NCBI GenBank assembly: GCA_018971725.1
Contig: JAGXAE010000009.1
Location: 1-33,217, forward strand
Length of the DNA stretch: 33,217 bases
Direction of reading: 5' to 3'
Source of the DNA: Pseudomonadota bacterium
GTDB lineage: Bacteria > Pseudomonadota > Alphaproteobacteria > Acetobacterales > Acetobacteraceae
Part shown: one piece after another, positions 12,921-17,291 of the stretch
Numbering within the stretch: the stretch's first letter is position 1
Layout: each line of letters opens with the position of its first letter
Notes under the pieces: generated by a model
What the model was told of the DNA's origin: nothing
Database searches by the model: none
Seen by the model: the letters and a program-made list of their open reading frames with translations, nothing else
Translations under genes and position numbers: made by a program

Positions 12921-13016
12921 AATCTGAAATCATCGCACTCCCCTCAATTATTTAGAGGGCGATTCAGATTTCAGCTTCGCTCGTAGGCGCGCGAACCTGA
13001 AATCATCGCACTCTAG
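12921..13016 (+). repeat. Copy A of a dispersed hairpin repeat ending in CTCTAG
   Basis: Shares TTAGAGGGCGATTCAGA, a hairpin, and a TCATCGC(A/G)CTCTAG end with copy B. Contains a 17-nt direct repeat CTGAAATCATCGCACTC at 12924-12940 and 12997-13013. Confidence 0.88.
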
Positions 13017-13831
13017 CGCAAAAGCGCGTCCGCCAGAGCGTTCCAGCTCGCCTCATCCGGCGCCAGCAAGAGCCCGCCATCCGTCATCGAGGGGCGGTAA
13101 GCGGACCCATCGTAATGCCGCGCATAACCGCCCGCCTCGCGGTGCAGCAACACACCCGCCGCATGGTCCCAGGGCAGCAATTTGCGGAACATCTGCACAT
13201 GGCAATGCCCGGCCGCCAGCATACGGTATTGGTGCGCGGCGCAGCGGTAATCTGTCACCGCGGCCAGCTTGTCGAGCCGCTGGAGCACGTGGGAGCGCAG
13301 CGGTTCTTGCAAGAACCGCCAGGACATGGAGCCCACCATTCCGCTCACCGGCACGGGTGCTGCCACCTGCATGCGGCGGCGCGTGCCATCGGCGGCAACA
13401 AGCCAGGCGCCCTGCCCCTTCAGCGCAACGGCGCAATCATCGCCGAAGGGGTCGTAGATGAAGCCGGCCAGAATCTCATCCGCCTCCACCAATGCGGCCA
13501 TCACGCCGAACAATGGCAGCTCGGCGGCAAAATTCGCGGTGCCGTCAATCGGGTCCAGGATCCACACGCGGCCCGGTTCAAGCAGCCGCTCGAGGCGCGC
13601 GGCGCCGCTCGCCACCGCCTCCTCGCCGATCACGTCATCGCCGGGGAACAGTTTGTGCAACCCCGCCTTCAAAGCTTTTTCCGCCGCCTCGTCGGCGATG
13701 GTCACCGGGTCCAGCGGCCCAGCTTTGGTGCGCACATCCTCCGGTGCCAGCTTCTTGAACCGGCTGAGAATCTCGGTCTTCGCCACATGGCGCAGCAGGC
13801 CGATGACGGCTTCCGCCTCACAATTGTTCAC
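13013..13831 (-). CDS. Inositol monophosphatase family protein
   Basis: GTG start (MNNCEAEAVIG); VTIADEAAEKAL, GEEAVASG, WILDPIDGTANFA and WDHAAGVLLHREAGG motifs. GTGA overlap with hflX. Confidence 0.92.
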   Translation of the reverse strand: MNNCEAEAVIGLLRHVAKTEILSRFKKLAPEDVRTKAGPLDPVTIADEAAEKALKAGLHKLFPGDDVIGEEAVASGAARLERLLEPGRVWILDPIDGTANFAAELPLFGVMAALVEADEILAGFIYDPFGDDCAVALKGQGAWLVAADGTRRRMQVAAPVPVSGMVGSMSWRFLQEPLRSHVLQRLDKLAAVTDYRCAAHQYRMLAAGHCHVQMFRKLLPWDHAAGVLLHREAGGYARHYDGSAYRPSMTDGGLLLAPDEASWNALADALLR

Positions 13832-15590: not shown

Positions 15591-15661
15591 CACCACTTAC
15601 CGGACTTGCCAGCATGGGGCTTTTCCCGCAATTCATGCCGGATACCGGAGTCCGCCATAAA

Positions 15662-16099
15662 ATGGCCGTAAACGCCCAGCCAGACGCCCTGCCCGCGGAG
15701 CCTACCCAGGCCAAGCGCTTCGGCAAAACCCGCGCCGCGCAATCCAGCGCCACGCTGGAGGATTATGCCGAGCTGATCGACGATCTGCACGCGGGCGCAG
15801 GCGGGGCGCGGCCCACGGAGATCGCCCGCCGCCTTGGCGTTTCCCACGCCACGGCCATCAAGACCATCGGCCGCCTGAAACGTGCGGGGCTGGCGACATC
15901 GGTGCCTTATCATGGCGTGTCACTCACCGAGGCGGGACGGCAGCTGGCCGCGGCCAGCCGCGAGCGCCACCGCGTGGTGGTGGAGCTGCTCGTCGCCATT
16001 GGCGTGCCGCGCGAGGCGGCGGAGGAGGATGCCGAGGGAATCGAGCATTACATCTCGCCCGTTACCCTCGCCGCGTTTCGCGCCTTTCTAAAGCGCTAG
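15662..16099 (+). CDS. mntR: Manganese-responsive DtxR-family regulator MntR
   Basis: LEDYAELIDDL, helix-turn-helix PTEIARRLGVSHATAIKTIGRLKRAGL, RERHRVVVELL and EDAEGIEHYIS. Start uncertain (ATG 15614 or 15662; the listed ORF begins with TTG at 15575). Confidence 0.88.
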   Translation: MAVNAQPDALPAEPTQAKRFGKTRAAQSSATLEDYAELIDDLHAGAGGARPTEIARRLGVSHATAIKTIGRLKRAGLATSVPYHGVSLTEAGRQLAAASRERHRVVVELLVAIGVPREAAEEDAEGIEHYISPVTLAAFRAFLKR

Positions 16100-16236
16100 A
16101 GCCGGATGACATGAGATCGAATCGCCCTGGCGATCGCTCTCATGTCTGAATCCGTCTCTGAACCAATGAATTAGAGGGCGATTCAGACTTCAGTTCCGCT
16201 CGCAAAGCGAGCGAACCTGAAGTCATCGCGCTCTAG
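16096..16236 (+). repeat. Copy B of the dispersed repeat, CTAG at both ends, two hairpins, between convergent mntR and the lpxR-like gene
   Basis: CTAGAGCC...GCGCTCTAG; hairpin 1 at 16104-16153, hairpin 2 at 16186-16224 (16 of 18 positions paired, AAA loop). Confidence 0.9.
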
Positions 16237-17237
16237 AACCTTACCGAGAGCGCCACCGAGCCGTATTGGAAGGCCGGAGCGGAATGATGGAATTCGGGGG
16301 TCTCGAAGGTTTCCACCGCCGATATGCGCACGCCGCGATAGATAACCGCCGCGCCGAACTCCAGATCGCCCTGCAAATGCGTCAGCCCGGTGCCCCGGCT
16401 GGAACGGAAATCATTACCCTGGATCAGCATGTCGTGCGCCACGAAGCGCCCCAGCGCGCCGCCGAACACATACCAGACAAATGGCCGCGTGGGAGTGTAC
16501 GCATCCATGCCGGAAAGCTGCGGCTGCATCACCGCCGGGCCAAAATCTGAATCCAACCCCTGGCCGAAGCGCACAATGCCCCCGGTCTGCGCGTAAATCT
16601 CGGTATTGCCCACCTGCCCGGTGATCTGCGGCAGCACCTGCACGCCGATGGGGCCGAAATCCGCCACATCCTCGCGCCAGATGCGGCCGCCGTATAAATC
16701 CAGCGTCGGCTCGTTATGCAACTGGTAGTGCCAGCCTTTGTTGGGGGTTTGCCCAATGACCTCGTGAAACCCGTTCTGCACGGATTGCCCAAGCGCCGCC
16801 GGCCCAACAATACCAACCGCCAGGCCCAGAATCGAACGCGTTTCGGTCGTGTCCTGAATCAGGCTGAGCCTTGTGGATAGCTGCCCGGCATAGGGGCGGT
16901 CCTGCGGATTGGGGTTGTAAGCCTGGGTGTTGGACGGGGTAAATATCTGCTGCTGGAGATCGATCTCCAGCCTCTGCGTGCCCTCACCGAACAGGCCATG
17001 GCCGAAATTTGCGATGAACCCTGGCACCCAGCCGGTTGGCCCCACATAACCCAGCCGCTCGCCGGAGGTGTAAAGCTCATCCGTGCTCGGAATCGAGAGC
17101 GCGTCGTTCTCAAGCTGAATGGTGACGATGCTGTGCGGATCGTCAGGCGGCACAGCGGCCAAGGCTGGCTTGGCGAGGCAAACAGACACAGCCACACCCA
17201 ACGCGGCAAGAGAAATGGCGGTCGCGTATTTTTTCAC
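16233..17237 (-). CDS. LpxR-like outer-membrane lipid A deacylase (DUF2219)
   Basis: Signal peptide (GTG)KKYATAISLAALGVAVSVCLAKPALA; QLENDAL, LYTSGERLGYVGP, FHEVIGQTPNKGWHYQLHNEPTLDLYGGR; terminal F typical of outer-membrane barrels. The ORF extends to 17291, but the GTG at 17237 fits the signal peptide better. Confidence 0.85.
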   Translation of the reverse strand: MKKYATAISLAALGVAVSVCLAKPALAAVPPDDPHSIVTIQLENDALSIPSTDELYTSGERLGYVGPTGWVPGFIANFGHGLFGEGTQRLEIDLQQQIFTPSNTQAYNPNPQDRPYAGQLSTRLSLIQDTTETRSILGLAVGIVGPAALGQSVQNGFHEVIGQTPNKGWHYQLHNEPTLDLYGGRIWREDVADFGPIGVQVLPQITGQVGNTEIYAQTGGIVRFGQGLDSDFGPAVMQPQLSGMDAYTPTRPFVWYVFGGALGRFVAHDMLIQGNDFRSSRGTGLTHLQGDLEFGAAVIYRGVRISAVETFETPEFHHSAPAFQYGSVALSVRF

Positions 17238-17291
17238 TAGGATTAAACCTTTGCGGGCGTGGCGGTCAGCACGCTGCAAGATGTGACCCAA

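Follow-up and report, generated by a model that had tools for sequence, protein, structure and literature searches.

The convergent genes for an MntR-type regulator (Pfam Fe_dep_repress/Fe_dep_repr_C) and an LpxR-like protein (Pfam PF09982, E 7e-83; named relatives in Acidocella and Acidocella-like MAGs, including Acidocella aminolytica) end on opposite sides of a two-hairpin repeat at 16096-16236 of the window, the whole 33,217-nt stretch of DNA analysed here. Both stop codons lie in the ends of this repeat, raising the question of whether the repeat brought them there and what it does between the two genes. The interval reads CTAGAGCCGG...GCGCTCTAG, with CTAG at 16096-16099 and at 16233-16236. 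Sequence and fold agreed with the sequence-only reading of this interval as a two-hairpin repeat with CTAG at both ends. The ends of the open reading frames (AAG CGC TAG for mntR and, on the minus strand, GTA AGG TTC TAG for the lpxR-like gene) likewise bore out its observations that the two stops are the TAGs of the left and right CTAG and that the LpxR-like protein has a C-terminal Phe. The features of the locus, and of a relative of the repeat elsewhere in the window, are as follows.

15613-16099, plus strand: mntR-type regulator gene; stop TAG at 16097-16099, the last base of which comes from the element
16097-16098, no strand: left TA of the target-site duplication, forming bases 1 and 2 of the mntR stop; the G007 (L112) empty site has a single TA (...CGAAGCTAGAACCTGACC)
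16099-16233, plus strand: probable non-autonomous IS630-type element proper, GAGCC...GCGCTC, 135 bp; a 139-nt unit from TA to TA, with identical ends genome-wide
16234-16235, no strand: right TA of the target-site duplication, inside the lpxR stop as read on the minus strand
16097-16160, plus strand: left hairpin, seen in fold and covariation; outer arm TAGAGCCGGAT-GAC; conserved bulge of 3 nt (TGA) in the inner arm
16172-16235, plus strand: right hairpin, mirroring the left one; conserved bulge of 3 nt (TCA) in the inner arm GATTCAGAC
16097-16123, plus strand: IS630-like left terminal motif TAGAG-N17-GAATC, with the same spacing at IS630-family ends of the genus
16233-17291, minus strand: lpxR-like gene, convergent; stop TAG at 16235-16233, the last base of which comes from the element
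12945-13016, plus strand: right half of a diverged family member, whose CTAG end is the stop of an inositol-monophosphatase-family gene (13013-13831, minus strand)

We concluded that the feature very probably (probability roughly 0.86) belongs to a family of non-autonomous MITEs of the IS630/Tc1-mariner type that occurs across the genus, is mobilised in trans by an IS630 transposase, preserves stop codons and accumulates at gene 3' ends.

Empty sites and the stop codons of both genes

The mntR-lpxR junction without the element was found in G007, where it reads AAA CGA AGC TAG AACCTGACC. In this genome the two genes overlap tail to tail by 4 bases, both TAG stops are present in one CTAG, and the gene order is unchanged. 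In the sister genome G004 (L111), this site is filled by the element, as it is in the window. To find more empty sites, the genus was searched with ten additional joined-flank queries. Junction-exact empty sites were obtained for L145 (CTAA) in G025 and in G000, the genome of the window, for L006 (TTAA) in G004, and for L144 (CTAG) in G000. Other empty sites were found, but these orthologues had diverged at the junction, so that an exact empty site is not always readable. Filled sites exceed empty ones by 135 bp and one TA, indicating target-site duplication of TA at YTAR. This hallmark of an IS630/Tc1-mariner-type MITE was seen in the window versus G007 and at three more sites; lengths given here are 135 bp for the element proper and 139 bp including both TA copies. 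The base-exact empty sites support the earlier proposal that the element inserts at CTAG, which is one favoured form of YTAR.

The outermost base of the element, adjoining the duplicated TA, is G at its start and C at its end. Since each gene keeps its TA and takes the third base from the element, TA+G yields TAG on either strand. At the sequence level, both stops are shown to be rebuilt with only the third base replaced, and neither predicted protein changes. Where the stop is TAA, the insertion converts it to TAG, as on both sides of L006. Thus, the element preserves stops and is not their historical source. The sequence-only reading, according to which the ends of the element supply the stop codons, had itself named a relative without the repeat but with the same TAG stops as the case against this claim; G007, with both TAGs already in one CTAG at the empty site, is such a relative, and as history the claim is wrong.

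A genus-wide family and its probable mover

The genome of the window, a 2.4-Mb draft of 269 contigs that is 86% complete, holds nine full-length copies of the element with 92-100% identity, in both orientations, and in addition one 80% copy and fragments. All nine share the same sharp ends, and the repeat is therefore not a product of chance. G004 has eight copies (96-97%). A search of 100 genomes, 38 of them from the same genus, gave matches in 27 of these 38 and in a single genome from outside the genus. Copies with intact ends have the form Y-TA/GAG...CTC/TA-R, with few exceptions among 39, and measure about 139 nt from TA to TA. With this length, no transposase ORF, multiple copies and near-identity among the recent ones, the element has the properties of a MITE. 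Just upstream of the diverged half-copy in the window lies a second right-end fragment, in which about 12925-12942 repeats 12997-13013.

At L187 (G000:C185, 1020-2734) and L147 (G004:C49), two inverted copies flank putative Nudix-like and dienelactone-hydrolase-like genes. The 1.7-kb segment is 99.9% identical between the two genomes, the mntR proteins of which are only 91% identical, and the right element copy marks the end of the match. This segment may reflect a recent transfer, a binning error or recombination at the repeat.

A second MITE family, of 104 nt, follows the same two-hairpin plan and has CTAG as its target in 25 of 29 cases. More than 20 near-identical copies with TAGAGC ends occur in G021 (L097, L320-L339), and the ends of this MITE resemble those of an IS630 in G016/G017/G031. 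Two of the G021 copies abut directly at a CTAG.

Transposases with the Pfam domain DDE_3 (IS630-type) were detected in 26-27 of the 38 genomes of the genus, including G004 (26 above the cut-off); none was found in G000, as an 86%-complete draft of 269 contigs. The IS630-family elements of the genus are about 1.05 kb long, several have TAGAGC ends, and their flanks are mostly of the YTA type; the transposase reading frames contain HTH_Tnp_IS630-type and DDE_3 domains. The motif TAGAG-N17-GAATC marks the ends of ten IS630-family loci among those examined, as it marks the left end of the element in the window, and in 408 kb of G000 it was found in copies of the element and in one chance match. 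The element and the IS630s of the genus have no more in common than the 5-6 outermost bases and, equally spaced, the inner GAATC; the bases in between differ. Among the matches listed, there was no full-length IS with exact TAGAGCSSGATGAC ends: many were MITE copies, and no pair lay about 1 kb apart. As the exact parent was not found among these matches, we only infer that an IS630 transposase mobilises the element. IS630 elements of the L052/L065 type were rejected as parents, their ends being different (TAGAGTCT) or cut by contig ends. An IS5-group transposase was rejected as the mover, since none of the PF13586 loci checked was flanked by the ends as an IS.

Placement at gene 3' ends and the role of the hairpins

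The background for the placement of copies was taken from 479 kb of G000, in which a hexamer-based gene caller, trained on this genome, identified 432 genes. YTAR sites in this background lie on stops in 95 cases (5 shared by two genes), between genes in 410 and inside genes in 739. The element loci (n=39) were drawn from nine genomes, their flanks were rejoined, and the same caller was applied; 26 were located on stops (5 shared), 11 were intergenic, and 2 were inside genes. Compared to the background, which is that of G000 only, the ratio of stop to intergenic sites was strongly increased (26:11 versus 95:410, odds ratio 10.2, p 1.2e-10), supporting the earlier claim that copies sit at stops more often than under random placement. 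Shared convergent stops were occupied in 5 of 37 loci versus 5 of 505 background sites (p 2e-4). Two of the 39 loci, L142 and L178, are probably one shared insertion, which would leave the conclusion unaltered. Among sites at a stop or at most 20 nt from one, the ratio was 26:5 versus 95:41 (p 0.13). The excess at exact stops is thus not significant, and the preference is therefore one for gene 3' ends, where stops are the main YTAR sites. As the excess covers gene 3' ends in general, tolerance explains the bias as well as function does.

The two-hairpin fold of the stretch has an energy of -73.5 kcal/mol (z -7.8 versus shuffles). In 26 diverged copies, 95.6% of the cells of the consensus structure were paired, changes on both sides were observed in 17 of 42 pairs (4-7 with partners slid), and the 3-nt bulge in the inner arm of each hairpin was retained in nearly all copies. 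The hairpins are maintained, and the covariation does not indicate for what purpose. Comparison with Rfam gave chance-level matches only, all of them outside the element. In one copy, L009 (G000:C33), the 3-nt bulge is missing and the right palindrome is perfect, which looks like the outcome of one arm being copied onto the other.

The strong bias of the copies towards 3' ends and stops, the high stability of both hairpins, the compensatory changes preserving their pairing, and the lack of room for a terminator of their own in overlapping tail-to-tail genes would all fit an element retained as a useful bidirectional 3' end, which would terminate transcripts, stabilise RNA as a hairpin or insulate convergent genes from each other. 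We consider such a role unlikely. The excess is general to gene 3' ends without significant over-representation of exact stops, G007 has the same gene order with an empty orthologous site, and either the mechanism of transposition or conversion between arms, the latter suggested by the perfect palindrome of L009, could also preserve the pairing. Moreover, neither a U-tract nor a terminator match was found on either strand between 15900 and 16450. As no run of U follows either hairpin, a classical terminator is unsupported, and so is the bidirectional terminator that the sequence-only reading had proposed, the bias being explicable by harmless placement at 3' ends.

It is less probable still that the element actively targets stops or gene ends beyond YTAR, for example via transcription or supercoiling at converging genes. 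The occupancy of shared convergent stops given above would be in line with such targeting, as would the bias in recent copies of the 141-bp family, which is still high (about 9 of 13 in G000 and G004). However, no extended target motif beyond YTAR was seen in the flanks of the element loci. In addition, the 104-nt family points to selection after insertion: in its youngest burst, that of G021, stops are occupied by 7 of 20 copies (p 0.06 versus the local background), compared to 6 of 9 among the older, diverged copies in other genomes (p 0.002). Survival at harmless sites thus seems to contribute to the bias.

Under the preferred reading of a stop-preserving MITE, the target was the 4-bp CTAG in which the convergent mntR and lpxR genes already overlapped, each ending in TAG as in G007. 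An IS630-family transposase would have inserted the element in trans at the TA of YTAR, with the duplication of TA apparent from the empty site. Harmless insertions of this kind may then have led to the observed enrichment of copies at gene 3' ends and stops, and the hairpins would most likely be part of how the element is built for transposition or replication.

Relation to known elements and consequences

IS630 is described in PMC2170065, citing Tenzen and Ohtsubo 1991, as inserting into TA with duplication of TA, preferably within CTAG. Insertion at TA with TA duplication is shared by the element with IS630 of Shigella sonnei and with ISY100 (IS630/Tc1-mariner superfamily); unlike these, it has no transposase, is 139 bp long, tolerates YTAR and has two hairpins. 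It also resembles ERIC/RU, RUP, SPRITE, Correia and MITEAba12, which are short, palindromic, non-autonomous multicopy MITEs moved in trans by IS elements (PMC10969869, PMC6382973, PMC2229807), but represents a different family with different ends. Within this group of papers, a terminator-like function has been suggested for SPRITE. Two-sided preservation of stops was not found in the accessible text of PMC10969869, where 'stop codon' does not occur, or in that of PMC6382973.

GTAG REPs are palindromic repeats near gene 3' ends, the termini of which often give the flanking ORF its TAG stop (PMC3733652); the general phenomenon is therefore not new. These repeats have a one-sided GTAG tag and are thought to be moved by RAYTs (PMC3733652), whereas the element described here has two like ends, duplicates TA, and resides in a genome in which no RAYT was found. 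A single-hairpin REP with a GTAG tag at one end was rejected, as both ends are alike in a symmetric YTAG...CTAR arrangement. A REP/BIME-like pair of palindromes moved by a RAYT (Y1 tyrosine transposase), with a TAG-bearing foot supplying stops as in GTAG REPs, would account for the paired inverted hairpins with conserved bulges, but is very improbable given that Y1_Tnp is absent from G000, G004, G025, G007 and G021 with weak matches in only 5 of the 38 genomes of the genus (PF01797), that the YTAR target is symmetric with TA on each side of the insertion, and that IS630 elements of the genus share the motif TAGAG-N17-GAATC of its left end.

The present analysis adds the TA+G rule, a clear two-sided case together with its empty site, and an enrichment measured for a family of IS630-type MITEs. 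The locus provides a base-by-base example of a transposon entering coding DNA on both strands at once with neither predicted protein altered, and this example explains why palindromic repeats so frequently appear to supply stop codons. It also reveals an annotation trap, in that stops seemingly derived from an element predate it. The TA+G rule and the bias towards YTAR at stops lend themselves to direct tests in any genome that carries IS630-type MITEs. A wider generalization, which we regard as doubtful, is that G-starting ends make TAR stops, including 4-bp convergent overlaps, the niche of CTAG/YTAR MITEs and their IS630 parents, with the inserted hairpins forming new 3' ends between formerly overlapping genes. 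If true, the TAR stop of any gene would be a two-sided safe harbour for such MITEs.

As a separate observation, CTAG is depleted in the window as a whole, with 18 occurrences compared to 43 expected from shuffles.
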